Positions 29,885-64,000 of a stretch of 64,000 nt of DNA are shown here, one piece after another (the first letter of the stretch is position 1; every line of letters starts with the position of its first letter). The DNA is taken from contig OX579637.1 of the NCBI GenBank assembly GCA_951230915.1, positions 5,580,001-5,644,000 of the forward strand. Reading direction: 5' to 3'. Made by a program: the position numbers and the translations under genes. The DNA comes from Antitrichia curtipendula. Lineage: Eukaryota > Streptophyta > Bryopsida > Hypnales > Leucodontaceae. The notes beneath the pieces were generated by a model, which had not been told where the DNA came from, did not search any database, and worked only from the letters and a program-made list of their open reading frames with translations.

Positions 29885-29885
29885 T

Positions 29886-30930: not shown

Positions 30931-30940
30931 CAAAAAAACA

Positions 30941-32640: not shown

Positions 32641-32647
32641 GGAACCG

Positions 32648-40295: not shown

Positions 40296-40850
40296 TTATC
40301 GCCTTTGTAGTTCTAAGAACTTTTGATCCCACTGATCAAAAAATGGAGAAGCGAAACTCCTGGTCACGCGTCCGCTGTGCATTTTGGTCTTTCTTACTCC
40401 CAGGGCAAGAGGTCGTGGCCGAGGAATTGAGGGCACATCAGACTGGATAGCAACCTTCTCTTTGCACAATTCACCTGGCACTTCTAACACTGGTGACAGC
40501 GCTAATACTAGTGACATGACGTTCTTGTACAATTTCGTCTGTGGTGTTTTGTCGGAGGCAGACGATGACATCTGCGAAAGCGAAAACACCTCTAGACTTT
40601 AGTGGAGAAGGGGAGCAGGATTTAGGCAGACGAGGAGTTCCACTCGGAGGACTGTCTACCACACCATCCTCAAGAGGCCTAGGAGAATAATCCATCATGG
40701 AATTAGATGTTGCCGCCGAGCAAAGGAAGTTTCTTGTACTCAAAATTGCGTTTTGCCCATAGTCTAGGATGGAATCAGTTGACGCCGTACAAGTGAGGCT
40801 AGCATTCATGAGCGGAGACGGGGAGAAACGCAAATTCTGAGAACAACACA
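40296..40850 (-). CDS. Ser/Pro-rich segment F of element 2
   Basis: The exon begins after an acceptor (gttctcag) near 40842. The core STDSILDYGQNAILSTRNFL and PLEDGVVDSPPSGTPRLPKS, then CSPSPLKS, is conserved in element 3 (57738-58122: SEDSILDYGQYMILSTGNFL, QIEDGVVNNPPDKKPRLPIS, CSPSPLRS). Protein-level conservation across diverged DNA shows it was coding. No fold is recognised; the SPxPLK motifs look like phosphorylation sites. It lies downstream of the HAD exon's stop, so it is either a separate small gene or an alternatively spliced 3' exon. Confidence 0.55.
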
Positions 40851-41188
40851 CAGTTAGAGATAATATCACTTGAGATTAACAAAGCAAAGCCCACAAAATA
40901 AATGCAGTCTCAAATATCCTAGGCGAAGGCAGCAGACCGCTCAACAAGTAAGATGGACAAGACTTGAAACCAGAACAGAAGTCATATTTGAAAACCATAT
41001 CAAATCATTTTATTTCACAATATATGTGGATACAATGCTGAACAAGTACGTGAATTAGTACGTGAGATAATGATTCATGTATCAGATCGATGCGAGCTAA
41101 AGCGCACAAGAATATACATTTGCTTATTTAGGTGTCTAATAGATCGAGTCAACCTGAACTACACTATCAATACATACACAGCACTATC

Positions 41189-41990
41189 CTATCGTAAATT
41201 CTCTAAAACTCGCACTGCATTCAAAATGCTGTTGTACGTGCCACGACTTCGTTCGTCGTAGAGCATCCTCCTCCCAATTTTTTCTTTGCTAGTCTCTCGG
41301 AAGGACTTCAACCCTATGTCCCGAGCGTCTGTCAGACGCTTTAACCACGGCAACAAGACGTTGAGCAGAAACGTGTCCTTTGGACCATGTCCCTTGTAAT
41401 TCCAAGAGTCCGGGAGAATGACATTCTCGGTCTTGTTCATCACGTGCTTCACTGGGCTGTCATCAACTGCAATTGTATTTTCATAGTTGAATTTCCCTCG
41501 GAATCCCGTGAACAAGGTACTCATGTTCTTGAGGAAGAGATCTTTATTTGTGCCCGGTTCACTAAAAGTCCCGATGCACCCAAAATCATCTCTGTATTTT
41601 AGTTTCATGTACGACTCCTGTTCGAGAACGAACATTGGATACTCCTGACCCTCAAATAGGTACAAGCAAACTTCTTCTGTGGTGGACTTCTTCATGGAGC
41701 TCCAAATAGAAACAAATGCTATGCGTCCTAACTCACAAAGGAACTCAGCGCAATTTGGTTGGACCCAGACTGCTTTCAGTCCCACTAACGTTGGAATGGT
41801 TGCCGAGTGCGGCTGCGACGCATCACGGGCGTGAAAGTACGAGCCCTTCGACTTTGCATCTTCACACACACACAGAATTCCATTCAGGTCCAGGACAACG
41901 TTGAGCCACTTCTCCGGCACCCTCGACGTCAATGGAAGGTCTACCTCCTTCGATTTTCCTCGAGGACATGGAGGATCCGGTCCTTGCTAT
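41189..41990 (-). CDS. FCP1/NIF-type HAD domain of element 2
   Basis: The exon runs from an acceptor near 41990 (gtttgatag) to a TAG at 41189, open throughout. After a basic leader it reads KWLNVVLDLNGILC (motif I), then IAFVSIWSSMKKSTTEEV (motif II), AVDDSPVKHVMN (motif III/IV) and FLLNVLLPWLKRL. This is the FCP1-homology (NIF) layout of CTD-phosphatase-like proteins. DLNGI replaces DxDGT, so the general acid/base Asp and the Thr are missing while the nucleophile Asp stays. The same DxNG form is found in a plant NIF-like subfamily, so it may be a captured host domain. About 53 residues upstream of the usual start are conserved with element 3 (DP...RGK..EV.LPL), supporting the exon start. Confidence 0.75.
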
Positions 41991-42152
41991 CAAACGTACA
42001 AATGTGCAGCCAGTTACTACGCTGCACTAACACATTTCGACACAATCGGGACATCAAGGAAGAACAAAAGTGGACGACCTACTGTCCAAATAAAAAAATA
42101 AAATGAACTTATGAACACCGTGATATTATAAGGCATGAGAACGTAGAATACC

Positions 42153-42337
42153 TGCTCTTTGGAAGAAGTGGGATCCTGAGCGGGCTCCGGATTTGGAATC
42201 TCCAAAAGCCTCGCATCCGGAATAGAGGTGTCATCACAAAGAGGCCCACGATTGTCCACAGCGGCAGCGCTAGCATGTGGATTTTCGGCAACAGGGATAC
42301 GCTCTGGAGATGTTGGTGGAATCAAGACAAGTGCCTC
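42153..42337 (-). CDS. Short acidic exon of element 2
   Basis: Flanked by an AG acceptor (gaactgcag near 42338) and a GT donor (GAGCAG/gtattc at 42153). It encodes ALVLIPPTSPERIPVAENPH and an acidic, proline-rich tail. A similarly placed acidic exon with donor GAAAAG/gtataa lies at about 59296-59480 in element 3. It joins the coiled segment to the HAD exon. Confidence 0.5.
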
Positions 42338-42582
42338 TGCAGTTCAGGAATTGCCAAGAAAGAAATTCGTGAGACATCGGTGTATTTCATCATATCGAAA
42401 TGAAGTAAGTACAAAATTGATTTTCAAAATGCGAACTCAGTGGTTATGTCCACTACTAGTGCTCTGCCAAAAAATGATTGTTTGTCAACCTGATTCTACA
42501 TCCATGTTCATTCTATTCTACAAATCAGCTCGAGTTGAGCTAAAACTATACAAATGACATCGAGCGATATTTACAAATTAAC

Positions 42583-43594
42583 CTGCAGGGGGATCTGGAC
42601 CAGCCAGTGGAGCACTCTCTTGGTCTACATTGACAGCGGTGTGCTCTTGGGCCGTGACATCATCGGGGACAGAAATGGTTGCAGGCTCACTACCAGCAAC
42701 CTCACCATGCACTTCCAAGGGATCCAAATCCTCTGCAAGTGGTGCCGGTGACTCCGCGCATGCGGATTGAGGAGGAGGCGGAGCGGGTACCACGAATTCT
42801 CCAGTCAAAGGTGCAAGTGGAAGAGGAGGAGGTACAGACATGATTTGTACTCCGGGCTCCACCAATAAACTTAAGGATCCACTGTTATTGGATCCTCCTA
42901 CTGGACCCTGGAGGAGCAGCTGCTGACCCGCCGGCTGCATAGACGCGAGAGGTTGGATTGCACCCACATGATGCATGATGGTTTGAAATTGGTTGGCAGA
43001 CTGCTGTTGTTGCACCAGAAACAACTTCTTTAACTCCTCCATTTGCCTCGCATTCTCTGCAAACATCTCCAGGTTGGACCTGCGGTCGTCTATCTGGTCC
43101 TTCCTGAGCTGCTGAATCTCCGCCTCTCTGATGTCATCTTCTTCATTCATCTTCCGCCTCTTCTTCTCTCGGGCTGTAGGCGACGGCGAGGGCGACGGCT
43201 ACGTCCTTATGAGCTATCTGGATGAAGCCGAAGATCCCCGAATGCTCTGTGAAGCAATAACCGTGGGTGTTGTTTGCTCAGTTGGTACGTCGTAATCGTC
43301 GACATTGTCGTTCAGCTTGTGCTCACTGTTCGACGAGATATCTACACTCTCGTTTGCTGCAGGCTGCGACTGCTTGGCTGGTGTCCAACTGGCTTCAGCT
43401 GCCGCCTTTTCCTTCCGCTTCGACGATGACGGTGTCCCTGACCGCTGGGGTCTTCTCGGATACATGGCCTCGTCAACAAAATAGCCGGATGGTAGAAAGT
43501 CATTCTTATCCAGAATCTTAGTTGCACTCGCAATTCTTGTCCAGTCGTCGGATTCATCCGAGTTCCCCACCGCAAACACTTTGAGCCTGCTCAT
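42583..43594 (-). pseudogene. Coiled-coil / proline-rich segment D of element 2
   Basis: The exon starts after ccgtcag at 43595 with MSRLKVFAVGNS and ends at a donor (CTGCAG/gttaat) at 42583. Order: a short conserved N-terminal block (W..I......L...DFL.SGY, shared with element 3), a Ser/Thr/Lys linker with GTPSSSKRK, two in-frame stops (43214 and 12 bp downstream), KKRRKMNEEDD, a charged coiled coil, a Gln-rich stretch and a proline-rich acidic tail. Both stops fall in poorly conserved linker; without them the frame runs through the whole exon. Confidence 0.6.
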
Positions 43595-43752
43595 CTGACG
43601 GAGCGGCACATACACAGTCAATTGCATAATTACAATTCAGATCGGGTTGAGCTGAACAACGGTGACAATTGCATACTTACGATTCAGGTCGACTTGACCT
43701 GATTCATAGACCAGATATATTACCAATGAACGTGAATGGGAGTATTACTTAC

Positions 43753-45104
43753 CATTGCAGCACACGTGAATTTAGACTCGGCAAAGAGTGACAGAACGTT
43801 CACCCCAGGCACGCAAAATTTTCAAAGAATACGGATATAGAACTCCATCTGCAGCTCTGTGTTGTTGATTTTGAATTCGAGTTCATTGTACAGCTGCGGC
43901 TTCGTGTATGTATCTGTATTCAGCGCATCATACGATGCCCTGAGGTCGACATAGCTTCTGTTGTTCGGGCTCTGAAGGAATGTGAGATAAATTTTCTCGA
44001 CCGCCTTCTTGTTGGTGACGGAGTAGTCGCCCATCCTCTCTTGACTTATTGGCATATAGTCCGAGAACGTCATCTTGTACTCCTTCAGCACATCATTCAA
44101 CTCGATGTAGTGGAGAAGTTGCGTGTGCTCAGTGAGATCTGAAGCTATCAGAAGCCAATTGCGGACGTCCTCAAGGTGCGGTTGACCTTTCTTCTGGAAC
44201 GATTTCAAGGCAGCTGTGAAGAACAGGTAAGATGGCGTGCACTTCTCCTTGTTTAGGACGATAGGAGTGTTTCTCACGTCCCATACACCAAACGCCATGT
44301 TCTTCAAGTGCTCGGCAGTCATCGCCCCCTTCGGCCAATCCTGGTGCTCTTCTGAATTTATGTCATACGGTCGGTAGTAAGCGACAGACATTGGCGGGAC
44401 GAAGTTATTCCTGCGCTCCAGGAACACCTTGAAGAATTGCGCCGCGTACGGTGACATTTCCTCCACGGATTTGTTCTTGGCTCTGGGCTGCTTGGCTTCG
44501 GCCCAGTAATTGTCTTCAGGTTGCTCGAGAAGAACATTCATCGTGGCACTCGTGAAGTTTTGACTTTTCTTGAACTGCCTCCACTTCTCCACGTTCAACT
44601 CGTCCACGACGTTCATTAGTCCCAGTGTCATGTCCACGAGATGCAATGCCCGCTTCACAAGGTATTTGCGCTTCCAGTGCTCGACCCACTCCATGCATGT
44701 GTAGCAGCTCTCGAGCACCCCCGTGATGAGTTTTATTGTCACCTTCGGATACTTCTTGTTCTTTCTTCCTGGCTCTTGGTGCAGGATGTGCTTGGCCAAC
44801 TTCGTCAGGTCATACAACGAGAGATTACCAAGCCACTTGAAGAATTTGTGGGTCAAGTTCCCCCTCTCTAGCTTCCAGGTTGTTCTCGCGTTGAACTTCA
44901 TCCGAGTGTCTGGGTCCATGAGCTCCCCGTGCGCTGCGCTCGAAATCACCTCACTCTAGAGGCTGAAAACTTCATCAGGAGCGGTTATTATCATGAGCTC
45001 GTTCACAATCTTCAATTTCTCTTCTGCGTCTTTTCCCTATGCTGTCTTCTGGGCCTTCACAACATCAAGCATGGCAAAGCGCTTGTACATTGCCAAGAAG
45101 AATT
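43753..45104 (-). pseudogene. Helical segment C of element 2
   Basis: The exon runs from an acceptor (tcgtgcaag) at 45105 to a donor (GCAATG/gtaagt) at 43753. The open 375-codon core starts SEVISSAAHGELMDPD and contains DLTKLAKHIL, PKVTIKLITGVLESCY, MEWVEHWKRKYLVKRAL, ATMNVLLEQP and ELEFKINNTELQMEFY, each matched in element 3. Upstream, a TAG stands exactly where element 3 has Trp (SL*SEV against NLWSEV), and another stop lies in KTA*GKD, so the exon is inactive. Predicted almost entirely alpha-helical; no family recognised. Confidence 0.6.
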
Positions 45105-45241
45105 CTTGCACGAGTGTCATGCATCACAGAGCAGTTAGTACGCATGATTCAGGTCGAGTCGACCATAATAGTACTCTTGCTTAATGATGCAGATAGAGTA
45201 TGATCTGTATGGTTCAGGTCGAGCCGATCTGAAGTGCATAC

Positions 45242-46679
45242 CTTGAACATTGATTTATTCAGTTTGTTGTCCGCGTTACGCCTGGCAATGGACTTCTTTC
45301 CAACCGGTGCAGCTTCCTTGGGATTTCTCGGTCTCCCCATAATTTCCCAGACCTTCCTCGCTCCAAGGATGTTAGTGGACCACGATGGCTTCATGGCTAC
45401 AAAGTGATTCACTCGGTTGTAGTACGCGGAGATGGCACGGAGCTTTTCACCATCTGATGACCAGACCACGTAGCACTCCCACTGGCGGAAGTGCTTCACA
45501 ATCTCTTTGTCTAGTCCCTTTGCTACCATCAGCTTGCTCGCGGTTACACTGTGTTGGCCGTTGATGATGTAGAACTTGTTGTTCTTCAGCAGTGGCCACT
45601 GTTTGGGTGTGGGTTTCTCATTCTGATCCACGAGCATCACACATAGTATTTGCTTTGTGGACTTGTCGGGCATCTCCCACAGGTAGGTCATGACGTCCTC
45701 GGCCAATCTTTGCTCATGGCTTCGGATGTAAAGGTGTGCAGGTGCCTCACTCAGTTGGTCAATGGGTATCGTCTTTTTCTCCTCCCTGTCGAAGACGTAT
45801 GCGTCTGTGCAATTCTTCCAGTAAGCTTTGTACGCAGCCGTGGATGTGTCGTAATCATGTTTTTGCTTCGAGTCGTACGCAGCAGGTACATCAGTCACCG
45901 CGGACACGAAGCTTTGTTCTCCAGCTGCAGATGCGCTAGCGTCCTTGTCGAATGGGACAATTTCTGACAACGATGCCAGGTTGTTTTTCTTTCGGCCAGA
46001 AAGAGCTGCACCCGCTTGCTTGCTCCTTCTTGTACCGCGACTTTGTTGCGTTCCTGGAGTTCCCATTGACCCCTGCCCTTCTACTGCGCTCGGGCTTTCA
46101 GTGGAGGCCGACCGTGGAGTCACGCTCTTCTGCTTTGCTTAGAGTTTTGCCTTCAAAACATCAAAGTCGACGAAGAGAATCCTGAGCTTAGCACACAAGT
46201 TCTTCCCGACTACAGTCCTCCCACTTGCCATCTTGAAGAAGCCGAGGTCAACTTTCTTTTCCAATTCTGGGATCTCTGTCTGGTAGTCCGTTGGTTCCAG
46301 TGACCTGATGAAGTGCGAGATGTTGAACTCTACCTTCGAGGAGTCAAAAACCAGCGTGAAGTGATACTGATCTTCTTCTTGTACTCCTGTCTGTGCTGTC
46401 TTGCAGTGAATTTTTATTATTAGACCAAGGTCGTGGACGATTTCCTTAATTTCTTCTTCGTAGGATATCGGGAAGTACGGCTCAGTTTCCATATACTTTA
46501 CGGCGAAGCATATGATGTTTTTAAAAGGTATCATGTTCAGACTCCAGTACTGAACCCTGTCCGGGTTTTGGAACTCCCAATACTCCTCTTCCTGGTCGAA
46601 GTCATCTTCGTCCTCCTCGACATTGAAGTTCTCGCATCTCTTGTAAAATGCCTCCAGCTTTGATATCTGGTCTTCCATC
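45242..46679 (-). pseudogene. N-terminal and ParB/DUF262-like exon (A+B) of element 2
   Basis: One long exon from an acceptor (tctgtag) before ATG at 46678 to a donor (TTCAAG/gtatgc) at 45242. Part A is acidic (EEDEDDFDQEEEYWEF) with YWSLNMIPFKNIICF and ISHFIRSLEP. A single TAA at 46139 separates it from part B in the same frame. Part B: disordered leader, then YDTSTAAYKAYWKNCTDAYVF, QRLAEDVMTYLWEMPDKSTK, FYIINGQHSVTASKLM, then WECYVVWSSDGEKLRAISAYYNRVNH and an IMGRPRNP basic end. The NGQHS loop followed by a helix, a strand and an N-rich helix resembles the ParB (DGxHR ... eN) and DUF262 (DGQQRLT) superfamily, which uses nucleotides. Closest relatives here are the element 1 and 3 copies. Confidence 0.6.
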
Positions 46680-46732
46680 CTACAGAACATTGTTGACATA
46701 CGCTTGTTACATTCAGGTCGAGTCGAGCTGAT

Positions 46733-48160
46733 TATCGCGTGTCAATGATTTTATCAAGACCACGCATCATTCACGCATTGTCTTCTTTCGCTTCTATTTA
46801 TTGTCTGATATCATGATTCATCGGGGTATGTACTATCTTGGGCACTCGTTTTAGGTCGACTCGATCTAATCAGGATATTCTTCACTTAATTCGGTCAGTG
46901 TTTTAATTGGTTAAGTGTTTGACTTCCTCCTATTCTAGTTCCCAGTACATGTTTTGTCTGTTATTTGATCTTATTGATTTCACTCCTCGCTCTCTATATA
47001 GGTTGTGTTGTTTTAGATCGGGTTGACCTAAACTTTGTATTAGATCAGGTCGATCTTGTTTTCTTTTCGGTTGGTTTTTTGTCTTGTTTGTTATATGATG
47101 GTATCTGTCTCTTAGATCTGGTTGACCTATACGTTGTATAGCTGATTTACTTGGTTTGACAGTGGTCCTGGACCTTGTTTGCTGCTTCGTTATATAGGTC
47201 GGGTCGACCTAAATGCCTTATTTCTCTGTATCTTTGCTTTGTTTTTTCTCGTTCAGGTCGATTCGACCTGAATTGGTGTTGATGTTGGTTATTGTTTTGG
47301 TCTCTGCAATTATATTTTATTTGTTCTGTCGCGATTTGGTTTGTGATTATCACAACTGACGTCTTTTCAGGTCGGGTCGACCTGAATAACATTACTATTA
47401 CTTTAATTATTTTATGCATTCTTGTTTTTGACCTTGATAATCGACCTGAACTGTCATCGACCTGAACTGTCATCAATCTGACCTGCATATGATTTTTATT
47501 TTTACTAATCCCTAATCTGAATTAGTAGAGTTTCACCGAAATAAGTCCCTACACTCTCACGCTAAACCCTAAATCCTAAGCGATCAACAAGATCCTACAC
47601 CCTAAGCAAACAACTGGTGCATACCTGTAGTGAAGAAGGTTATGAAGTCCTTGATGTCCTTGATGTTGCGAACTGAAACCTGCACATTCGAAGCAATACA
47701 AGCTTTGAGTTCTCTTTAATAAAGGAGAACAATCCCTCAATAAAAACCTATGAACAAATTTGAACAAATTCATGTATCCACGGACTCCGAGCATAATCAA
47801 ATTGGACGCAGGTTTAAGAAAACTAAGAACACAATGTTCAAAAGACACGACGTTCTACGTTTTTCCCATTCCACCACCTCCACCGAAAACAATCTAAACC
47901 GGAAACTTTGCACCAAAGCAGAATCCAGGAGGAACAAAGCACGAAGAACAATCTAATTCAAAAATCTGAATGCAATCCGCAAGTTCTAAGAAAACACAAA
48001 ACACATTCTTCACAAGGTTTAGGGTAAGCCAAAACCCATGAATACAAAATCAAAAATTCTAAAATCGAGCACCCGTGAATACAAAATCAAAAACTCTGAA
48101 ATCAAGCGCAAGTGTATGACAGCAGAAGACAATGTTACAAAAACAGAAACTTGATGCAAT
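46733..48160. promoter_or_regulatory. Upstream region of the element 2 minus gene with dense palindromes
   Basis: Nine full palindromes and two half-sites occur in 46.7-47.5 kb, spaced 30-140 bp. An acceptor precedes exon A, so at least one 5' noncoding exon must lie further upstream, perhaps near 47.6-48.2 kb. That region holds GATGTCC duplications and CTAAACCCTAA-like motifs. No TATA box or start site can be fixed by eye. Confidence 0.4.
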
Positions 48161-49230: not shown

Positions 49231-49240
49231 AAAAGAACTA

Positions 49241-49809
49241 TTCCCTCCGTCCCAAAATAATCTTCCTGTTAGACAAAATATTTTGGATTAAGAATAAAAA
49301 TAACATTTTTAAAGCCTGTTTGGCACTACATATAGAGTTTGGTGCACTCATATTGCCCTTGAAACTTTGAGTCTTGAAGCCCTTTGTAAAGTGTAGTTTT
49401 GGATTATTAAAAAGTGAAATTTTTTGGGTATTTTCAAGGAGCACCAGTGGTTATTTAATTATTGAGTGTGAGGTCGTCATTTTGTGGGTAGTTAGTATAA
49501 GTCAAAGACCATATGTAGACCTATATTTTGCCTCCCAAAACCTTCATGTCCTTCAATTAGATAATATTTAAAAAGAGATGCAAAAAATAAAAACAAGAAG
49601 TGTTGATTGACCCCTTCAACCATTTTATTTGTCTTTTGATTAGTGACTGCATAGATGGAGGGGGAACTATCGCTTGGAATTGTTTTGTTAGTCCTAGAGA
49701 ACAACCAAAATTTAAATTTGACCAATTTGCAGCTTACAAAGTACAACAAGAAGATCATTTTGGGACAAAAAATGAAGGCCAACAGGAAGATCATTTTGAG
49801 ACAGAGGAG
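49241..49809. mobile_element. Stowaway-type MITE, TA target site
   Basis: The left terminus TTCCCTCCGTCCCAAAATAA with TCTTCCTGTT next, and an inverse right terminus (AACAGGAAGATCATTTTGAG then ACAGAGGAG), match the plant Stowaway/mariner consensus CTCCCTCCGTCCC. TA flanks both ends (49239-49240, 49810-49811). At 569 bp it is longer than most Stowaways. A second partial copy of the right terminus (AGAAGATCATTTTGGGACA) precedes the end by about 36 bp. Confidence 0.88.
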
Positions 49810-49906
49810 TAATATATAAGACCATAAAGAAGCTTTCAAAAATATTCCTTAAATGATAACTTTAAAAACTAGTGCCTGCAAAGTTTTTAAGGAATATTTT
49901 CAAGTA

Positions 49907-50126: not shown

Positions 50127-50130
50127 AATA

Positions 50131-50611
50131 AAGAATTGTATAAGTTGCAAATGGGTTAGGAGTTTGAGTTCATGAAATGTTTAGGGTCATGCACATTTTC
50201 GGGTATTTTAGGTGCAAAAGAGAAAAATAAATAAACCAACCATATCTTGTACTTTAGAGGTCCCAAGTCCAAATTCATGGATTTTTGACGTGAAACCATG
50301 GAAGAAAGAATTGTGTAAGTTGCAAATGGGGTTAGGAGTTTGAGTTCATGAAATGTTTAGGGTCATGCGCATTTTTGGGTATTTAGGTGCAAAAGAGAAA
50401 AATAAACCAAACCAACCATATCCTGTGCTTTCGGGATCCCAAGTCCAAATTCATGGATTTTTGACGTGAAACCATGGAAGAAAGAATTGTGTAAGTTGCA
50501 AATGGGGTTAGGAGTTTGAGTTCATGAAATGTTTAGGGTCATGCACATTTTCGGGTATTTTAGGTGCAAAAGAGAAAAATAAACAAAACCAACCATATCC
50601 TGTACTTTAGG
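50131..50611. repeat. Tandem repeat, 175-bp unit, 2.7 copies
   Basis: Units begin at about 50131, 50306 and 50481 with AAGAATTGTGTAAGTTGCAA, continue through GTTTAGGGTCATGCAC and end CATGGAAGAA. The second and third copies are nearly identical. The period is in the nucleosome/satellite size range. Confidence 0.9.
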
Positions 50612-50823
50612 GTATGTTTATGCCATTTCTAAAGTAACATGAACATGAATATTTAATTTTTCATGAATAAAATGTCTTTGCCTTATTCACAACTTCTACA
50701 TTTTTTTCTCTCATACATTTATGTGTGAGTTTCTTGGGTTGACAATTGTGGGGCCCAAAATACATAATTATTCTCTTTGTTTCTAATTTGCTCACAACAT
50801 TCATAATATGAGCATGATTTATT

Positions 50824-50950
50824 AAAAATTTAATGAAGTAAGAGGCTTTGCCCCATTCGCAAATTAAAAATTTAATGAAGTAAGAGGCTTTGCCCCATTC
50901 GCAAATTTAAAATTTTAATGAAGTAAGAGTCTTCATCCCATTCGCAATTT
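50824..50950. repeat. Tandem repeat, 42-bp unit, three copies
   Basis: AAAAATTTAATGAAGTAAGA followed by GGCTTTGCCCCATTCGCAAATT, repeated at 50824, 50866 and 50909. Weaker relatives at 50661-50700 and 51262-51300 (TCTTTGCYYATTC-like) point to a more extensive decayed array. Confidence 0.88.
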
Positions 50951-51370
50951 CTACAATTTATTTCTTCTACTTTCACATGTGAACTTCATGGGCTTACACT
51001 TGATTGTGGGCTTTGAAGTACATGATCCTAATTTTCTTGTTTGTGCAAGGCTTTTCCAAAGCAACGTGACAATAATCAAACATAATTTCATGAATTCTAA
51101 GCCTTTGTTTTATTTGAAATTTATGAAATTTTTTTTTCTTAAAGTTTTGCTTATGAATTTCATGTTTTTTTAGGACTTGAGAGTCTATAAAAGAAATTTG
51201 CTTAAGTAATATTATTTTTCAGTTGAAGCATTCCCAGAAACGAGGATGATTCAAAAAATTTCATGAAAGAAAAGTCTTTGCTCAATTTGTAACTTCTGCA
51301 ATTCCCCCCCAGCTAATTGGAAAGGATCCAATAACTAAAAGAAATTCATTAAGGATGTCTAAAAATGTCC

Positions 51371-54041: not shown

Positions 54042-54151
54042 TATTATAAACTCTAAGGTCGACTCGAGCTTACATTTGTCTTGTCAGTTTTACCTCTTAC
54101 ACTACAAGCAGTTTACCTTGATTACTTTGACTTACCAACTACAATATTGAT

Positions 54152-56448
54152 ATGTCCTCAGATGCAATGGATTCCTCGGCAGACGTAGTGGACATAGTGG
54201 ATTCATCGGACGATGAGTACTATCCGCAAGAACATGAGGCTTGAAATAAATTCAATTGCCTCCAAGCGGCTATCCTAAATCCACCATCTTCGACGTCTGC
54301 TTGCCCATATACAAGTACCGTCTGAAATCCGCCCCGCGAAACTACTGCAAGAACGAAGGAACTACTCACTCAAGATTCCATCAACTTGGTGTCCAACAAA
54401 GTATGTTGTCGGCTGAATTGTGTTCAGCCATTCCCCAGGGATAAGATACAAGCCTTTCGTGAACGCATGTACCAGAATTCAACCTTCAAGCACAGAGCCT
54501 TTATGAAAATGGAAGTGCACAGACAAACCCATCTTGACCAACGTGGAAGAAGAATGGTAACAATTGAAGAGATACCGGTGTGTATGCAAGCATGGATGCA
54601 TATTTCAGGGGTCCCAAAATCCACCTTCTTCCGCTACCAAACGTACATGAAGGTTGGACAGGAAGCAATGGAGCACGACAACAAAGGATTGGTGAAGCCA
54701 AGAAAGCACACTCAACAAGCTACTGCAACATTGAAATGCATCCTAGAGAAAGAGGCGGATCTCATGCCACATCGTACGAAGACGTTGAAGTCGGGAGAAA
54801 AGGTTGTATCCATGATTCTCCCCTCCACGTTCCAATGGAAGGGTAAAATGAAAGAACTCAACGAAGCGAATGCTGCTTTTGGGTTGAAGGAGGTCTCAAT
54901 TTCAAACTTGAGCAAGATTAGATGTTCAGCGTTTCCAGAGTATGAGGTGAAGAAACCAGGGGACAATTTTGCACGGTGCGCTACTTGTGACAAATTGCAA
55001 GAGCTTAGGAGGCATGCTCTTGCTGGGTCTGTCACTGCTTTGAAGTGGTCACGGAGGTTGGACAAACATCTAGCAATTGCTCATGCTCATCGAGAGTTGT
55101 ACTATGCAAACCGCTACCGATCACTTACTTCACCGCAGGAGTGCCTCACAATCATGCATGACAAAATGGACCACGCAAAAACAGCTTATCCAGTCTACTC
55201 CCACAAGAGTAAAGATGTTGATGGTCTAGTGAAGTTGCCTGTGTCTGTCACGGGCATGATTGCGCATGGTCATGGAAATGTGCGTTATGCACATTATGGC
55301 TTGGATCTATTCACACATGATTCGAACTACACCATTGGCTCCATGGCAAAGTTGTTGCGAGATTTGGAGTTGCCTCCCAAGTCTTCTTCTCGGCAGTTGC
55401 TGTGGGTTTGGGGTCCACCAATTTGTTTCGTGCAGTGCTAAAGGGAGCTGAGATGTGCAAAAATTCACTTCCTTCACCGCCAATCAACTTAGTTCCAGCA
55501 ATACCTTTGTCCCCTATTCTCAATGTGCAAATGGACAATGCCACAGGCGACAACAAGAACAGATATGTTTTCTGTTTTTGGTCTCTTCTTGTTGCGAACA
55601 AGATCTTTCGAGAAATTTATGTGAACTTCATGATTGTGGGTCATACGCACGATGATATTGATGCGTTGTTTGGAAGATGGAGCATGCTCTTGAAGAAGGA
55701 GAACTTTCCAACAATCCCGGCCCTCATGAAGTCCTTCATGGATGTAGAGTCCATTTCTACTATCCCTCATTTCATAGAAGAGGTGCCCGATTTCAAGGGT
55801 TTCATTGTTGGTAAATGGATGGACGGCAATGAGATTCTCATAGGACACACAAGACCACAATAAGTGAAGTTCTATCTAGATTCGGCGGGTTGTCCAGTCA
55901 TGAAGTACAAATTGAAGTGTACAGATGAAGATTGGTTGGGCAAGGATGGCGGAGGGATTAAGTTGTGGAAAGAAGATGCTGAAGGGCGAAGACAATGGCC
56001 GCGCGGTGTACCGTTGTCAGTTCCACAAAAGGCAATTAAAGGCGTGGAAGACATTGTGAAAGGTGTGTCTGGATTTGTAAAGTATTGAGAGAATCTATGC
56101 AATGGAGACGTCACTGGAGAATGTCGTAGACGCTACGAGCTAGTTGTGCGCTATTGTTATGGTGTGAAGGTTGCTCTGCAGGAGCCACTACCATTGTCCA
56201 TTGTTTTGAAAGACGGGTTCTGGCCAACTACTCGTGTACAAGCAACAGAAGCAAATAAATTAGACGAAGATGGCGAGGACCTTGAAGAATATGGTGTGGA
56301 TGATGCTTATGTTGGGCCTTTGAGGGATCGCGCACAACCATCGTTCAGGGTGGCGCGGGATCTCTACAAAGGATACTTTGTTGCAGTTCGACTTGCAAAT
56401 GGTAAAAGTCAACCAGTTTGGATTACTAGGTCTACGTTGGAAGGTTGA
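54152..56448 (+). pseudogene. DUF7869-like transposase-type protein of element 2
   Basis: An acidic start (MSSDAMDSSADVVDIVDSSD) is followed by a stop; the main open frame enters at NKVCCRLNCVQPF (about 54388). Order: CCxxNC motif, MDAxx-free helical part with HISGVPKSTFFRY, CATCDKLQEL zinc-type pair (about 54980), MHDKMDHAKT, GHGNVRYAHYGLDLF, one frameshift near 55400, then VQMDNATGDNKNRYVFCF, IVGHTHDDIDALFGRW and PHFIEEVPDFKGFIVG. The D-N...NKN and GHTHxDID signatures define DUF7869, an RNase H-like, transposase-like family widespread in eukaryotes. Stops at 55861 and 56086 break the C-terminus (acidic EDGEDLEEYGVDDAY). Most complete of the two copies in the window. Confidence 0.7.
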
Positions 56449-56596
56449 TGAAACCGAACCACCTCTTTGGGAAGAAACAAATGCTTTGATGATAGCATGG
56501 AAGTCCTTGAACAGAAGAGGTACTCGCGAATGTAGGATCAAGATTCCTATAGCTCAGATTGAAGTCATCAACCAAAGCTTGGCTTCATATACTTGA

Positions 56597-57700
56597 CATT
56601 CTGGAATATTACCCTCAAATTAGTTATAGTATGTTAATTTCATATATTGGATATTTACTATTTTTTTGTCTTCATTTTAATTTAAATATACCTACTATTA
56701 CGTGTTCCTACATTCTCTTTTTGGGATATGTTATATTATTTAACTTGCTTAATGTATGTCCAAAATAGATTTGGAAATAAAATGCGATTGAGAAAAAGGG
56801 CAATGGGTATATCCACTCTTTAGTTTGTTAACATGTGAAGCACTTGTCACAATTTTGGATGGGGGGCCTGTTGGTTGTTACAACTTTCCTGCCTGCAAAG
56901 CTCACTTAGCAGTACCAAGTCATGTATCTCTTTCAGTCACTCATACGATTTCAACGGGAATCGAACTCGGACCGCCTGAAGGAGATGAATAGCTTCTTAC
57001 AACCAAACGTTCAGCTCATGACTTGGTGTTCAACAATGGTTTTAGAATTCACTTATATGATCTTAAACGATAGTATAACCCAAACTTGATTGTATTTGGA
57101 GACAAAACTCTCATTTTAATGGAAATTACAATGGTACAACTAATAAATGTGGTGATTCTCAATCTGAATTGTCAACATTTAATATTTGGATTTTGAACAT
57201 GTAAGTGGACAATATTATTTTGAGAGGTCCCCACCCTCTCAAAATAATGAATATAACGATAACTTTGCGCACTGCATCTCTATTACCCCAGAAAAGCATA
57301 TCATTTACATATATTTTGCTTTGCAATGCGTGCAATATATACTCTTCTATATGATGACATGTGTAGGAACCACGCAATGGATGCGTGATAAAAGCAACCT
57401 CTTGGACCCACCTAAGATAACAGTGGACTAGAATATAGACAAAAAATATGTAAACTAGAATGCACATGTATTATAAACAACTAGCAACTACGTGATGTAT
57501 TCTTGAGCTTTTCAAGAGCCATGATAATTTCAGGCCCTCAATTGGACCCTCCCCTGACACTTGCACCTACTTGACGCATGTGTTCTCTTTCTTGCTCTTG
57601 TAGTGACCTCTGCTCCCAGGAGTCCCAAGTAGGAGTGGAGGATTGAATCCACGCTGACCGTTCAGCGTTTTTTTTTTAATCTTCCTGATTCAGTCAATGC
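56597..57700. other. Junction between elements 2 and 3; possible SINE-like segment
   Basis: No gene. On the minus strand near 56945-56975, GGTCCGAGTTCGATTCCC resembles a Pol III B box, within a stretch bounded by inverted ACCAAGTCATG / CATGACTTGGT (56917-56927 and 57014-57024). A matching A box is not clear, and there is no cloverleaf, so this is at most a decayed tRNA-derived SINE. Confidence 0.3.
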
Positions 57701-57737
57701 TCGACAACATGGAAGTAGAAGACAAGCAACCGAGGGT

Positions 57738-58122
57738 TCAGGAATTTCCGGACGCAGATGACTTGGCGCATGGGATTTTACATCCGGTGTACATTAAATA
57801 ATTAGCATCTCTGTAAAGCTTCTTTTGCGTCTCTTTCTCTGAAATAGTTGGCGATCTTGACGAATCCCGGACTGCCCAAGAGCGCAGAGGAGATGGAGAG
57901 CAAGAAATCGGCAAGCGCGGCTTCTTGTCTGGGGGATTATTTACCACTCCGTCCTCGATCTGCTTAACAGAGAAGTCCATGGTGGAATTAACAATAGGAG
58001 CCGAGCAAAGGAAATTTCCCGTACTAAGTATCATGTACTGCCCATAGTCCAGAATGGAGTCTTCGGATGCTTGACACGGGAGGATCCCATCCAGCCTAGA
58101 TTTTATAGAATCATTTTTCATC
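57738..58122 (-). CDS. Ser/Pro-rich segment F of element 3
   Basis: The exon follows an acceptor (ccctgtcag) and starts MKNDSIKSRLDG. SILDYGQYMILSTGNFLCSA, QIEDGVVNNPPDKKPRLPIS and CSPSPLRS match element 2. The tail (SEKETQKKLYRDANY) differs. Unknown function; possible phosphorylation sites. Confidence 0.55.
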
Positions 58123-58356
58123 TGACAGGGAAAAATAAGAAAATTAGCCATAGAACTTTGAACACGTCATAAGTACATAGGGTTCAGTATAAGGTCTGGC
58201 CAGAGCAGAGAACCTTCGAGCTGTAAAAACAAAATCGTCCCAAAGTACACGATATCGTGAAGGGTGCTAAAATGCAACAAAGAAATACGTAAGAATAAGC
58301 TGTTTTAGGATGCTACATTTTTGGTCGACTCAAGCTGCATACCTCCAAAACTAAGT

Positions 58357-59158
58357 CTAACTAACACTAGCAGACCCACGAAGGACCTCTATAAGATTGT
58401 CATACTCTCGGCGACCCCAGTCTTTGCTCAGCATTCGTCTTCCAATCCTCCATTTTTTATTCTCTCTGAAGGACTTGAGACCATTACTGCGGTTGACGTA
58501 AAACTGTTGGAACCAAGGAAGCAGGACTGCCAGAAAAAACGTGTCCCTGTCACCATTTCCTCGGTTACTCCAGGAATTGGATAATATTACCTTTTCAGGC
58601 TTGTTCATGATGTGTTTGCGCAAGCTGTCGTCCACTACGACTGTATTATAAGAAGTGAAGTTCCCATAGAAGCCAGCAAAAAGGAAATCTAGGTTCTTAC
58701 GGAACAATTCCTTATTTGTTCCAAGTTCCTTGTAAGTGGTCAACCTCCCGGCTCTATCCCTGCACTTGATAGTCTTGCACGAGTCTTGCCCAAGAATAAG
58801 GAAGGGCCATTTTCCCTCCCGAAAGAGGTATCCACAAATTTCATCGGTCGTAGTTTTTTTCATGGAGCTCCATACAGTAATTTTTGCTATCATCTCTAGC
58901 TCCTTCAAGAACTCAGCGCAATTTGGACGAGCATATACTGCTTTGGGTCCAACAATTGCAGCGATTGTAGCAGAGTGCGGCTCTGAGGCTTCGCAAAAAT
59001 GCTTGGTTGAACTGTTGGACTTCCAGTCCTCGCAGCGGCATAAAACGCCACTGAGGTCCAGGACGACATTCATCCACTTGTCTGCCACCCCGGACCTCAA
59101 TGGACGATGGACGCCCTCCGTATTTCCTTTACGATTTACTATAGGATCGGACCCCTGC
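58357..59158 (-). CDS. FCP1/NIF-type HAD domain of element 3
   Basis: Open exon from an acceptor (gtttgttag) near 59158 to a TAG at 58357. It reads KWMNVVLDLSGVLC (motif I), IAKITVWSSMKKTTTDEI (motif II), VVVDDSLRKHIMN (motif III/IV) and FFLAVLLPWFQQF. The layout matches the FCP1-homology domain, and the sequence is clearly homologous to element 2 along its whole length. DLSGV replaces DxDGT, so the second Asp and Thr are again missing. All three copies in the window lack the canonical motif in different ways (NLNGI, DLNGI, DLSGV), which argues for a binding or scaffold role instead of phosphatase activity. Confidence 0.75.
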
Positions 59159-59295
59159 TAACAAACGTACGAATGTGCATCCAGTTATGATCGTGAAACT
59201 GGCTTAATTCGTACATCATGTGAAATCATGTCATTGTTGAAGGACAAACGACAATGTAGAATGTCCAGTTGTGCCATTCAAAGACAAGAGATTAT

Positions 59296-59480
59296 ACCTT
59301 CTCCAGTGCCGAACTTTAAGGCCAATCAGCAATTTCACAATTGGTTGCCACACAATGAGGTGCTAAAGTATCTTCATCCTTTTCAACGAACTCAGCTGAA
59401 CATATCGGATTTTTATCCTCAGCCCAATTTTGTGTAGAAGGAAGAATAGAAACCTCAGGACAACTTTCCAGATTCATAAG
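59296..59480 (-). CDS. Short acidic exon of element 3 (possible)
   Basis: Minus-strand segment with GLMNLESCPEVSILPSTQNW and an acidic EFVEKDEDTLAP stretch, one stop (DWP*SS), and a donor-like GAAAAG/gtataa near 59296. Its place between segment D and the HAD exon matches 42153-42337. Confidence 0.35.
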
Positions 59481-59721
59481 TCCTGCAATTCATGATTGTG
59501 GGGAAGGACTCTCTATAAGATATATATTGCATTTCAATGATAATCGTCCTTTACAATATAGAACTCAATCCACTAGTGTCGAAACTACGACTAACGCCAA
59601 CACAAACAATGTCCGTTTAATATCGAGTACTGCATCTACAGACAAAGCTAGAACTCAAACTCTATCAAACAGTTTAGCTCGAGTCGAGCTAAATCTACAT
59701 CAGGCAATTCTCACTAAGTGT

Positions 59722-60768
59722 TTATTGGGCAGAACCTACAGGTTGATCTTTGGTGGGCAGGGCATTACTTCCACGCTCCACCTCGGAAGCATCTCTGGAC
59801 AGGTCTTGCCCAATCTCCATCTCTGCAACTTCTATATTGGGACGTGGACTCCTCACTTGGTCTTCTTGCTGAGCTTCCGGAAGAGAGGGATCACCAACAA
59901 AATCATTAGACGGTAGAGGTGCGGGTGACTCGGGTGCACTACCAGGGATTGCCGTATTTGGCTGCGACGGACTCAAGGCGTTGCTTATGTTTGAGCCGGA
60001 CGGTTGGCCTTGCAGTTGTAGCATTGGAGTTTGTGGAGGAGGGGATAGCGTTGCGGACAATTTAGGATCAACCTTCATGATCAGGATTTGGAGCATTTCC
60101 CTGTTCTATTGGGCTAGCTCGCGGTTGTTCTGGGACTCCGACCACATCCACTCCTGATTATTTTTGTGAAGTTCAAGGTTTTCAGCCCTCTCCGTTGCGT
60201 TGTCCTCCCTCATCTGCGCTACTGCAAGCTCGTTTTGGCGCTGGTTCAGCTGAGATTGTTGTTGCATATTCGCTATCGACAAGGCAGTCTGCGCTGTAAT
60301 CTCCGCCAACTGCTTTGTAATACTTGTAATCGTTTCGCGCTTCTTCTTCTTATGTGGGCGCCCAGATGCAGTAGGAGTCTTTGGTGTCACATGCAAAGGA
60401 GGTAACATGGAGCTCGCCGATGATCCTGGTATATCTGTAGATGGGCGGCTCGTCGGTGTTGCCATTTCATCGAGTCCTTGAGGCCCGTCGTCTGCAATGT
60501 CTTCCTTGTCCTCATCGGATTCGGAATCAGATTCCGGTTCTTTGTACAGCAAAACCTCCATCTGCACCTCACTGAGTTGGGAAGTCTGGCTCGACCTCAA
60601 TTTCCTCATTGAGGATGAGGGCGTTGAACTTGGACCTTCACTAGTTGATCTCGGGTATCCACTCTCAAGGAAGTCGGCTAAGTCTAGCACCATCGCCTTC
60701 TTACAGATTTCTTTCCACCAACCCAATTGAGAACCTAGACCAGTGGCGTAGACGTTCACGTTACTCAT
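59722..60768 (-). pseudogene. Coiled-coil / Gln-rich segment D of element 3
   Basis: The exon starts after ctttgcag at 60769 with MSNVNVYATG and W..I......L...DFLESGYP, then GPSSTPSSS, an acidic run (SDSESDEDKEDIADD), a basic KKKKRE patch, a long charged coiled coil (TAQTALSIANMQQQSQLNQR...AQMREDNATERAENLELHKN) and a proline-rich acidic tail. One TAG at 60106-60108 (LAQ*NRE) interrupts an otherwise continuous frame. Likely a multimerisation or adaptor segment. Confidence 0.6.
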
Positions 60769-60965
60769 CTGCAAAGAAGAAATGATATCGTCATCGCAAT
60801 CAACATAAGAGGCCAGACAGTTTAGCGCGGCCCGCTCTAAAATGACATCTCTTTCAAATGGATAGGAGCGCGCACAGTGATAACAAACATGCAGTACAAT
60901 GACTACATACATGCAACTCAGTTTAGCGCGCCCCGCGCTAAAGTGCAGTCGTGTTGCTTATCACG

Positions 60966-62310
60966 GCCGCGCATGTTAGTTTTCCCCCCGTGTAACCGGA
61001 GAAGATGGACATGCCAGACTTGCAGAATGCCTTCACGAGCCACAAGTAGAATTCCATTCTCAATTCCGTGTTGTAAATCCGATACTCCAGCTCACTGTAC
61101 GCGCGTGCTTTCATGTATTGTGCCGTTTCTGGACACTCAAACTCGGAAGGGATTTCCACCTTGTTCTCATTCAGTGGATTCTGCAGAAAGATAAGGAACA
61201 CTTTCTTGGGCGTCCTCGCCGCTTATATTTTTATTAGTCGGTCATTTTTTCCAACCGAGTACACGGAATACGAAATCAAGAAGGAATTGAGAACCTTGTT
61301 CAATTCGACATACTTTAGTGCTTGAGCTTGCTCCTTCTCGTCACCACAAATGAGGATCCACAACGGAACATCCCCAAGTGCAGGTTTCTTTGTGTCGTCC
61401 ATGGACGTGAGCACTTCAATGAAGTACGGGTTCTCCACGGTAGAGGTGGCCTTCTTCTCAATCCCCGGCAAGGACCTGAAGTCAATCACCCCGAGCACAA
61501 GATGTTTACCGATCTCCGTAGTCCACACCTTCTTCGGCCATTCCATGTGACGATTTTCGACCCACTCATAGGGCCGATAGTGTCCATTCGCCGTCGATTT
61601 CTCAAATTTCTCCTTTGTGTTCAAGAAACACCTTGAAGAAATCATAGGCTTCTTGGGATAGCTTGGTGATCACCTTGTTCCTAGCCGATTTGTTTTTTGC
61701 TCTCCCAAAATAGACTTCACCGGGCCTGTCAAGCAGCACGTCCATGGTGGCGTTGGAGAAAAGTTGTTCCTTTTTAAAGGCCTTCCAGTTCTCACTAATG
61801 ATCTCGTTTCTTGCGTTCATGAGCCCAAGTTGAGGCTTGATGCCATTGAGCTCCTTGATCACGAGATGTTTCCGCTTACGACGTTCGACCCACTCCTTTG
61901 TGCTGAAACAGTCATTGAGGACTGATGTGATACTCTTTACTGTGACCTTTGGGTATGAATGAGTGCGTTTCCCACCCGATTGGTTGAGCAGATGTTTTGC
62001 AAGTTTTGCAATTTCATCGTAGCTCAAATTATCCAAGTGCTTGAAGAATTCACGATTCAACATGCAACTTTCGGGATTTCAATCCTCCTTCGCGTTAAAC
62101 ATCATATCCGTGTCAGGATTGAAGAGCTCTCCGTGCGCGGCGGCGGTGATCACCTCACTCCACAGATTGTACACATCATTGGGTGCCGTGATGAGCCGTA
62201 ATTTGTTTGTCAGCTTTAGCTTCTCTTCTTTATATTTCGTCTTCGATATCTTCAGATTCTTGACAACATCAATCATGGAGAATCTCATATACATTGCCCT
62301 CTCGAGCACC
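60966..62310 (-). pseudogene. Helical segment C of element 3
   Basis: The exon starts after an acceptor (cgtgatag) at 62311 with VLERAMYMRFSMIDVVKNLK. Conserved with element 2: NLWSEVITAAAHGELFNPD, EIAKLAKHLL, PKVTVKSITSVLNDCF, KEWVERRKRKHLV, ATMDVLLDRP, YRPYEW, ELEYRIYNTELRMEFY. A TAA follows KED (about 62080), a frameshift occurs near 61640 and a stop at 61223. The 3' boundary is a probable donor (GCGGCC/gtgata). Confidence 0.6.
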
Positions 62311-62458
62311 TATCACGTATTTCGACAAATGGCGTTAGAAATTGCAGCATAGTTTCATGTAATTCTATCGGAATACAGGGGGCAAAGAATTCAGCAAGGA
62401 ATGAACTGATCCGCATCTCGGGGATGCAGTTTAGCACGCCTCGCGCTAAAGTGCTTAC

Positions 62459-63911
62459 CTGGAAGCTCTCCTTTTTCTGCTTGTTCTCTACTGTCCTTCT
62501 CGTGGATGCTAGAGTACCAACTGACTTTGTTGGCGTCGGATTTTTGGGCCTGCCTATATCCTCCCAGACGTTTCGAGCTCCCAGAATATTGGTCGCCCAA
62601 GATGGTTGAACAGCCAGAAAATGGTTTGTGCGATTATAATATGCGGAAATGCTTCGCAACTTCTCAGCATCTTTTGACCATACAATGAAGCAGTTCCATT
62701 TCTGAAAGTGCTCCCTCTCATCCTTGTCCACGTTGTTTTTGTCATCGAACATGTACTTGCTAGCTTCAATACTATGCTGCCCGTTGATGATGTAGAATTT
62801 CCCGGCCTCGATTTCCTCCCACCCTGTGGGTTTCTTCTTCAGACCGATGGGCATGACGCAAAGCGTTTGTTTTGTACTCTTGTCCGGAATATTTAGGAGC
62901 ACATTCACCATGTCTTCAGCAATGCTGCTCTGCTTGGACCGGATGTTATATGTTGGAGGCGCCTCTATGAGCTGAGCAATGTCAATCTCTTTCTTTTCAC
63001 CAACACCAAATACTTACGCGTCTTCACAGGTGGTCCAGAACATCTTGTACACCTGACTTATATGCTCATAGTCAGGTTTCTTCTCTGTCGCCCGCGAATG
63101 TGGCACATTTTCCATCTCGTCCACGTAACTCCCTTCTGCAACTTCTGAAGTTTCAGATTCTTTTGCATAAGAAGTCTTCTTAGGCTGTGCTGCGGCAGCT
63201 TTCTTACCCTTTCGCGTGTCGGTCTTCACGGCTGGCGTTTGAGTACTTCTGTTACCCCAACTTGCACCTGACTCCTGCTTTATTTTGAGCTTGGAGGTCA
63301 TACTAACGCCTTGGTTTATAATCTCCTTTGACGCAAACCGGGCTCTGTTATTCTCCTTTTGCATCTCAAGCTTCCCCTTCAACGTGTGTAAGTCATTGAA
63401 TAACATTTGGATTTTACTGCATAGCTTTTTCCATGTGAGGGGTGTCCCATTTGCATTCTGCCACTTGTTGTTGTCCAGTTTTCTCTCTAGCTCCTTGATC
63501 TCATTGCGGTATGGAGTAGGTTCGAGACTCGAGAGGAATGAGCTCAACTCGAAGGGCACAAGGACGGAGTTGATACAGATTGCGAAGTGATAATTATTCT
63601 GCCTACTCTCACCGGGAATCGTTGTCATGCATTTGACTTTGATCATTGGATGCATGTCTGCCTCTACATCCTTGATCTTCTCGTGAAAAGAGAGTTGCAA
63701 GAAGCACTGAGCATTCTTAAATTTGAACGAAATGCAAAATTACTTTATGAACGGGATCATGAATAAGCTCCAGGCCTCAACTCTCTTCGGCTCCTTGTAT
63801 TCCCAATATTCTCCTACAATGAGATGGTTGTATGCACTTTTGTTGTCGTCGTGAAACTGCACTTCACATCTCTTGAAGTACATCTCCAGTGCCTCGATTT
63901 GGTTATCCATT
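62459..63911 (-). pseudogene. N-terminal and ParB/DUF262-like exon (A+B) of element 3
   Basis: Acceptor acttgcag before ATG at 63910 (MDNQIEALEMYFKRCE), donor TTCCAG/gtaagc at 62459. Part A: EYWEYKEPKRVEAWSLFMIPF, a frameshift near 63735, then ADMHPMIKVKC and LSSFLSSLEPTPYRNEI, matching element 2. A stop at 63013 replaces the Tyr of DAYVF. Part B: SIAEDMVNVLLNIPDKSTK, FYIINGQHSIEASKYM, WNCFIVWSKDAEKLRSISAY, then YNRTNHFLAVQPSWATNILG and DIGRPKNP. The NGQHS loop and N-rich helix are identical in arrangement to element 2, supporting the ParB/DUF262-like assignment. A basic lysine-rich linker (KTDTRKGKKAAAAQPKK) could be a nuclear localisation signal. Confidence 0.6.
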
Positions 63912-64000
63912 CTGCAAGTAGAACAACGGTAGCAAGGGTGGTTAGTCGACTCTCATTCTCAAGTTGCATTTTAGCGCGACACATTTCAGTTACTGCTTTG

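Follow-up and report, generated by a model that had tools for sequence, protein, structure and literature searches.

Related transposons and ParB systems

The sites of bacterial ParB, Noc and KorB proteins are palindromic (parS, NBS or operator). In eukaryotes, the 21.5-kb DNA transposon Sola1-1_Ec32 of Ectocarpus has a ParB-like and DNA methyltransferase gene that lies on the other strand from its transposase, and its description cites green and red algal relatives (Iyer 2011; Petroll 2025; PMC12477816). The VANDAL transposons of Arabidopsis encode VANC, whose motifs are 8–9 nt long and arranged in tandem in one orientation (PMC5735166). Chimeric Sola2-Fanzor transposons combine a Fanzor accessory gene with a Sola transposase and have AT-rich (AWWT) duplications (PMC3627910).

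The window (the whole stretch of 64,000 nucleotides analysed here) contains elements A and C, which resemble Sola1-1_Ec32 in their giant size and in having a ParB-like and methyltransferase gene whose strand is opposite to that of the transposase. Their accessory protein has, in addition, a coiled segment and a HAD domain of the FCP1 type, and its catalytic motifs are altered. Further differences are the plant-like setting and the lineage-specific palindromes; the string "palindrom" is absent from the main text of PMC12477816. A first-pass annotation had proposed a new class of element. ParB and methyltransferase accessory genes were already reported from giant algal transposons (PMC12477816), and the locus thus represents no new class. 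As in the VANDAL/VANC system, an element-encoded accessory protein occurs together with family-specific motifs that lie in noncoding DNA including introns and differ between families, but here these are palindromes of 20–22 bp, and the protein and transposase families are different. The likeness to bacterial ParB, Noc and KorB consists of a modelled ParB CTPase fold plus repeated palindromic sites, whereas the altered nucleotide motif, the eukaryotic introns and the fused methyltransferase and HAD domains set the protein apart. Furthermore, no ParA ATPase matched among 30 scanned ORFs, which cover the decayed elements in part. Short inverted repeats, a 4-bp target duplication and an accessory gene alongside the transposase are shared with Sola2-Fanzor elements, but the duplication is TGAT and the accessory protein is not Fanzor. 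The Sola-superfamily combination of 4-bp duplication and short inverted repeats is found in C only.

Gene strings and DUF7869 genes

The features are listed in Table 1. Strings A (40.3–46.7 kb) and B (57.7–64 kb) are clear homologues in tblastx, with the same order and strand and about 33–63% amino acid identity per block. The third string, C (11.7–18 kb), is real but decayed, with HAD pieces in collinear positions. The three homologous strings of the first-pass annotation are borne out. The features it named are present, although the interval it gave was too narrow (C extends from 9159 to 37701); the methyltransferase fold, palindromes and element ends were absent from that account. Unassigned blocks separate the HAD pieces of C from its ParB-like loop piece. 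All copies are damaged: in-frame stops interrupt the ParB-like exon in both A and B, the DUF7869 gene of A has a frame break and C is fragmentary. The setting is plant-like, and the closest named relatives among the matches listed are Physcomitrium patens proteins.

Divergently transcribed DUF7869 genes accompany A (54.3–56.4 kb) and C (34.0–36.2 kb), in agreement with the two copies annotated before. In A, two overlapping ORFs match PF25273 (E 4.6e-6 and 3.8e-30, the latter at 55321-55863), and the first of them has 392 relatives. In C, the family profile matches at 35025-35312 (E 2.7e-24) and 34383-34724 (E 1.9e-18). Asp motifs are conserved in the DUF7869 consensus (HDKMDH, QMDNA.DNKN and GHTHDDID). 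A search of open-licence PMC papers for "DUF7869" returned 0. The DUF7869 gene of B is expected past the window edge. A Pfam scan of 20 element ORFs yielded only NIF and DUF7869 above the cut-off, and no VANC or Mutator-type transposase.

Table 1. Positions of the features in the window.
Feature	Position	Strand	Remarks
A, last conserved block	40296..40875	-	tblastx A vs B, 63% over 75 aa
A, FCP1/NIF-type HAD domain	41189..41986	-	PF03031 E 8.3e-13; motif I DLNGI without the second Asp
A, exon 3: linker and coiled segment	42578..43605	-	short matches collinear with L001 3178-3345 and B
A, exon 2: most of DNA-methyltransferase-fold domain	43751..45125	-	DVRNTP vs family DFRxxP
A, accessory exon 1: N-terminal (weakly PH-like) and ParB-like CTPase-fold domains	45242..46693	-	in-frame stop 46139-46141
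A, DUF7869 transposase-like gene, divergent	54326..56448	+	frame broken near 55.4 kb
A-type palindromes TTCAGGTCGASTCGACCTGAA	41081..54073		introns and upstream of both genes
B, accessory gene, cut by window edge	57738..63952	-	tblastx to A; profiles
B, HAD domain	58357-59157	-	PF03031 E 3.4e-13
B, methyltransferase region	about 60960-62300	-	within accessory gene
B, ParB-like part	62455-63952	-	two in-frame stops
B-type palindromes TTTAGCGCGSSGCGCGCTAAA	59673..62450		sites 59673, 60821, 60922, 62430
C, left terminal inverted repeat, 28 bp	9159..9186	+	TGAT before, 9155-9158
C, accessory gene, decayed	11775..17983 (limits rough)	-	profile search of window ORFs
C, HAD pieces	12440-11775	-	collinear; E 0.13, 4e-3, 1e-4 separately; motif I NLNG
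C, ParB-like loop piece	17122-16820	-	alone not significant, E 0.27 / 0.4
C, DUF7869 transposase-like gene, decayed	33972..36242	+	tblastx to copy at 54.3-56.4 kb
C, right terminal inverted repeat	37674..37701	-	TGAT after, 37702-37705
C-type palindromes TATCGTGRGATCYCACGATA	9452..37653		clusters 9.4-11.7, 13.5-16.2, 18.1-19.1, 32.6-33.3, 34.9, 36.4-37.6 kb
E, likely nested in C	21291..30923		imperfect 52-bp inverted ends, E-type palindromes GGCTCCTYGRAATCYARGAGCC
E, gene with methyltransferase-like motifs	25107-27936	+	

Domains of the accessory protein

The long gene is predicted to encode a ParB-type CTPase fold and a DNA-methyltransferase fold, followed by a coiled segment and then an FCP1-type HAD domain. 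The domain models were built on the relatives P0001 and P0125. In the loop NGQHS, annotated earlier as ParB/DUF262-like, NGQH is invariant and S nearly invariant among 27 aligned sequences, two of them window-derived, and modelling gives this domain a ParB CTPase fold. The arginines of the ParB motif GERR are replaced here (NGQHS). No confident helix-turn-helix follows the CTPase core of the model; this and the replaced GERR arginines speak against the self-recognition proposed below. No PDB sequence matched the ParB profile at E <= 1.

Neighbours of the methyltransferase fold are CcrM, RsrI, PvuII and bdelloid N4CMT. Foldseek returned 0 rows at E <= 0.001 for P0001 and P0125, the first rows for P0125 (METTL3-METTL14) lying above this value. 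The methyltransferase profile found four weak rows in the PDB, two of which are arginine methyltransferases (E 0.15-0.19). Of the traits of ParB-methyltransferase accessory proteins, the ParB-like and the N4/N6 DNA methyltransferase domains are present, whereas a canonical DPPY-type motif IV is not. The presumed motif-IV position, placed by strand order, reads DFRxxP instead of DPPY or NPPY; across 44 aligned members the Asp is invariant, and the Phe, Arg and Pro are nearly invariant. The FCP1-type HAD domain, confirmed by PF03031 in A and B, lacks the second Asp of its motif; A's HAD ORF gave 0 PDB matches at E <= 1e-3. Judged by these motifs, methyltransferase and phosphatase catalysis have probably been lost, and the accessory protein therefore probably acts by binding rather than catalysis. 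Two scans of viral contigs produced 4 and 19 pattern-matching stretches with no relative among them.

Ends of element C and the nested element E

The inverted repeats of C are identical in 27 of 28 bp and flanked on both sides by TGAT, a 4-bp target-site duplication. At <=3 mismatches the repeat matches the two ends only in the whole window, and 0 times in 100 shuffles. The repeats and TGAT enclose both the accessory string and the DUF7869 gene. C is a giant transposon of about 18.9 kb after subtraction of the nested insert. The repeated insertion unit with ParB-like, FCP1-like and DUF7869-like genes proposed earlier is upheld, with ends and target-site duplication for C. Element E is likely a nested insertion, and C-type palindromes are absent from the region holding it (19.1–32.6 kb). 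No target-site duplication was found at the inverted ends of E, and no ParB-like gene is recognizable in it. For A, no convincing repeat with duplication was found, weak candidates lying near 39.66-39.84 and 57.1-57.26 kb; for B, which is cut by the window edge, no ends were found.

These missing ends, and the large insert between the two parts of C, would fit strings and DUF7869 genes that are independent repeats and neighbours by chance. Such a coincidence is very improbable, as a single palindrome type extends across both genes in A and likewise in C, and the ends of C enclose both. The two genes also occur together elsewhere, relatives of the ParB-like or the methyltransferase exon sharing 8 contigs with DUF7869 relatives, though 5 of these exceed 0.5 Mb. 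Convergent pairing of the 34-kb DUF7869 gene with A and of the 54-kb gene with B was rejected because A-type palindromes flank string A and the 54-kb gene and C-type palindromes flank string C and the 34-kb gene.

Element-specific palindromes

Every element has its own family of palindromes, 20–22 bp long, which are found in its introns, promoters and flanks. Conservation of the exon strings, as annotated before, is borne out, but the noncoding DNA does have a pattern in the form of these palindromes. The families have up to 16 members versus 2 in simulations, and all 47 good matches are noncoding by hand-set exon limits. Counts with the consensus sequences, which are partly circular, are 14 C-type sites at <=4 mismatches (0.0 expected) and 32 at <=6 in the window (4.6 expected), 31 of the latter between C's inverted repeats. 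The A-type has 13 and 20 sites at these thresholds (against 0.0 and 0.2 expected for the entire window) and the B-type 4 at <=4 (0.0 expected), with none of either type in hand-set exons. A-type sites are intronic at 41.1, 42.5, 43.6-43.7 and 45.1-45.2 kb; others precede the ParB-like gene (46.7-47.4 kb) or the DUF7869 gene (52.3-52.8 and 54.05 kb). The C-type cluster at 13.5-16.2 kb is located between coding blocks; site 14328 falls in an unassigned 104-aa ORF. D-type palindromes, with two sites, do not exceed the simulations, and a lone palindrome at 37363, near the right end of C, fits no family. Compared with A, the C, E and B types are clearly private. The A type and the L type, which comes from a different genome, are about one base apart per half-site, so that a private character is not clear between these two.

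At least one site is present in each of introns 1 and 2 in A, B, L001 and L002, as would suit transcript hairpins that bring intron ends together during splicing, for example. This role is most improbable, since sites also occur upstream of both genes (A, C) and downstream of C's transposase gene, the loops would measure 1-3 nt and the window has no Rfam match at gathering scores. Binding to subterminal repeats is common among transposases. The DUF7869 transposase could accordingly bind the palindromes, as subterminal or internal repeats for synapsis, with the accessory protein's role unrelated. C- and E-type sites do lie near element ends, where they could serve a transposase, as well as internally. 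In A, B, L001 and L002, however, the sites are internal, in introns and upstream regions, and E bears palindromes although its best DUF7869 match is not significant (E 0.09). We regard transposase sites as unlikely. The palindromes of E, in an element that has no recognizable ParB-like gene, also speak against their pairing with the ParB-like protein.

Still less likely is an active enzyme that methylates its own palindromes at N6-adenine or N4-cytosine. Self-modification was proposed by the Ectocarpus authors (PMC12477816), the fold neighbours are compatible with it and the consensus palindromes of A, L and C have GANTC or GATC centres. Against it stand the DFRxxP motif and three of the four B-type sites, which contain neither GANTC nor GATC.

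Proposed self-recognition by the accessory protein

The explanation we consider probable is that the copies are old giant cut-and-paste transposons whose ParB-like protein recognizes their own palindromes and counteracts silencing as VANC does. The transposase gene (DUF7869, DDE/D-like) and the accessory gene, transcribed divergently from it, would belong to a single element with short inverted repeats and a 4-bp target duplication at its boundaries, as in C. The accessory protein would be a eukaryotic ParB-methyltransferase fusion extended by the coiled segment and the FCP1-type HAD domain. By analogy with VANDAL/VANC, its dimer may recognize the palindromes as cognate parS-like or operator-like sites and coat the element's own noncoding DNA. 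The HAD/coiled part could then keep the element transcribable or, by analogy with VANC for VANDAL, shield it from host silencing. Together this suggests a self-recognition system for element control or protection. The missing ends of A and B and the bad decay of C weigh against this explanation.

More tentatively, in giant eukaryotic transposons a ParB-type clamp with dead methyltransferase and FCP1-like parts might load on lineage-specific palindromes throughout the element's noncoding DNA and override host silencing. It would be a VANC analogue of independent origin, built with bacterial plasmid-partition parts. Protein and palindrome would co-diverge, so that each lineage would control its own copies only.

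ParB-methyltransferase transposon proteins have been reported before, with no DNA site named in the passages describing them (PMC12477816), and no element-specific palindromes with ParB-type transposon proteins were found in the listed titles and abstract openings of open-licence PMC papers. The palindromes are candidate cognate sites, and they also mark gene pairing and delimit large decayed elements. Because they differ between elements, sequence-specific binding, anti-silencing and protein-site co-evolution are directly testable; Physcomitrium patens, which has annotated relatives of the protein, is one example of a suitable plant.

Gene strings and extent of the unit

The accessory-gene string and the DUF7869 gene form a real unit, which is delimited for one of the three copies (C) of this giant decayed transposon. 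In copies A and B, the latter cut by the window edge, the accessory blocks (ParB-like, methyltransferase fold or MTase, coil and HAD) are collinear with about 33–63% amino-acid identity (tblastx), and each copy has a Pfam match to the FCP1/NIF HAD domain (E 8.3e-13 in A, 3.4e-13 in B). The decayed copy C emerged from a search with profiles that combine A, B and relatives from elsewhere. The three homologous strings, the FCP1-type HAD domain and the two DUF7869-like genes of the first-pass annotation are thus confirmed.

Coordinates of coding blocks, element ends and neighboring features
Feature	Position	Strand	Evidence
Copy A coding-block string	46.7 to 40.3 kb	-	tblastx vs B
Copy B coding-block string	63.95 to 57.7 kb	-	tblastx vs A
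DUF7869 gene	54.3-56.4 kb	+	Pfam, E 3.8e-30
C, three collinear HAD pieces	12440-11775		profile search, E 0.13, 4e-3, 1e-4
C, ParB-like loop piece FIIRRQHTVRA	17122-16820		profile search, E 0.27 (alone not significant)
C, DUF7869 gene	34.0-36.2 kb		family profile, E 1.9e-18 and 2.7e-24
C, terminal inverted repeats	9159 and 37701		end scan
Second methyltransferase-like family, gene 1	484-5063	+	
Second methyltransferase-like family, gene 2	25107-27936	+	
D-type palindromes	1531, 1765		
E-type palindromes	21825-30403		
B-type palindrome	60922-60942		
F-type palindrome	37363		
DUF659 fragment	8151-8561	-	PF04937, E 5e-20
161-nt inverted repeat	18569-18930		
ORF with RING-like spacing	39210-39602	-	below Pfam cut-offs
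MITE-like inverted repeat	49244-49807		
176-bp direct repeats	50153-50680 and 50652-51306		88% and 61% to first copy

Copy C is bounded by 28-bp inverted repeats (27/28 identical), each flanked by TGAT, which enclose both genes. In a scan of 8600–11400 against 36300–39300 for inverted repeats with a 4-bp duplication, this pair scores 25.5 and the best pair independent of it 11. The element measures ~18.9 kb once E, a likely nested element, is taken out. In each of A and C, a single palindrome type spans both genes: A-type sites flank the A string as well as the upstream stretch of the 54-kb DUF7869 gene, and C-type sites flank the C string and the 34-kb DUF7869 gene. The latter are absent from 19.1–32.6 kb, a gap that holds E with its own palindrome. 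The earlier view of a repeated real unit is borne out, with ends and target-site duplication found in C only.

Relatives of the ParB-like and DUF7869 genes occur together on five contigs, and those of the MTase exon and DUF7869 on three, judged on identical size among 37, 40 and 87 contigs of at least 10 kb. This co-occurrence is supportive only, because 5 of the 8 shared contigs exceed 0.5 Mb.

Several further features were observed. The DUF659 fragment is of the hAT-transposase type. The 161-nt repeat (83% complementary, 40-nt spacer) adjoins C-type palindromes. The 176-bp repeat region between the two genes of A is devoid of palindromes and possibly a later insertion; related 55-bp units are also found between these genes. 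The MITE-like repeat, with CCTCCGTCCC at one end, is Stowaway-like. The ORF with RING-like zinc-finger spacing may be a host gene or part of A.

Palindrome families

The surprising part of these elements is their palindromes. Two relatives, L001 (7.4 kb) and L002 (6.2 kb), were found among 33 pattern matches in a genome contig scan. Both are filed in a cyanobacterial MAG (AVDCRST_MAG81) and are likely eukaryotic contamination, since their genes bear introns. L001 keeps the block order ParB-like, MTase-like, coil, HAD. On reading, the introns of both loci hold ATTCAGCTCGACTCGAGCTGAAT and near variants (L type), and those of A and B other palindromes.

A motif-free search of the window yielded 114 imperfect palindromes; 20 block-wise Markov simulations gave 51.8 ± 9.2 and never more than 69. 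The largest family joins the A and B types and has 16 members; the C, E and D types form families of 9, 3 and 2, and another pair is a low-complexity repeat close to 19.5 kb. L001 and L002 each contain a single family, with 8 members. Simulated windows contained no family in 17/20 cases and one pair in 3/20, so the two observed pairs count for little. With up to 4 mismatches, consensus sites number 14 for A (one within the B region), 4 for B, 14 for C, 5 for E, 2 for D and 1 for F (a lone palindrome), against 0.0 expected for each type in 5 simulations; these counts are partly circular because the patterns derive from the same DNA. A half-site resembling TTYAGSKCG is common to the A, B and L types, differing by about one base between A and L. 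The C palindrome is unrelated to these, and the C proteins are far more diverged.

Exon limits were drawn manually, guided by ORFs, homology and splice sites; on this basis all 47 sites with ≤4 mismatches are noncoding (L001 8, L002 8, A 13, B 4, C 14; binomial P 1.4e-4, 2.8e-4, 9e-4, 1.5e-3 and 5.8e-3, respectively). At ≤6 mismatches 71/73 are noncoding, the other two being 6-mismatch sites of C, where exon limits are least certain (site 14328 sits inside a 104-aa ORF without assigned identity). Introns and the upstream regions of either gene hold the sites; C has them downstream as well.

The outer arms of the listed B-type palindrome (TTTAGC...GCTAAA) equal those of the KorB operator; the match is probably due to chance. 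KorB is among the closest folds of the ParB-like domain in the predicted structure. A second methyltransferase-like family is represented by two decayed paralogues (motifs FDCPENL/ADVPDGL and DCTATT/DCNAST), one close to the D and the other close to the E palindromes.

Comparison with known elements

The elements had been proposed as a new class, which does not hold: a 2025 paper describes a 21.5 kb Ectocarpus Sola-1 transposon of the same kind, encoding on the opposite strand a 1104-aa protein with ParB-like and N4/N6 methyltransferase domains, and cites green and red algal cases (PMC12477816). Its authors propose that the transposon encoding such a protein is also its target, for binding as well as modification. 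Beyond what is described there, the window elements have a HAD domain of FCP1 type, altered motifs, candidate sites and a plant-like setting; as far as the searches reach, these are new. A model for the mechanism is offered by VANDAL elements, whose VANC proteins are reported to recognize short motifs that differ by family and lie in noncoding DNA, also within introns, and to bring about both derepression and loss of DNA methylation on binding (PMC5735166). The window elements would at most resemble these in their working and are not VANDALs.
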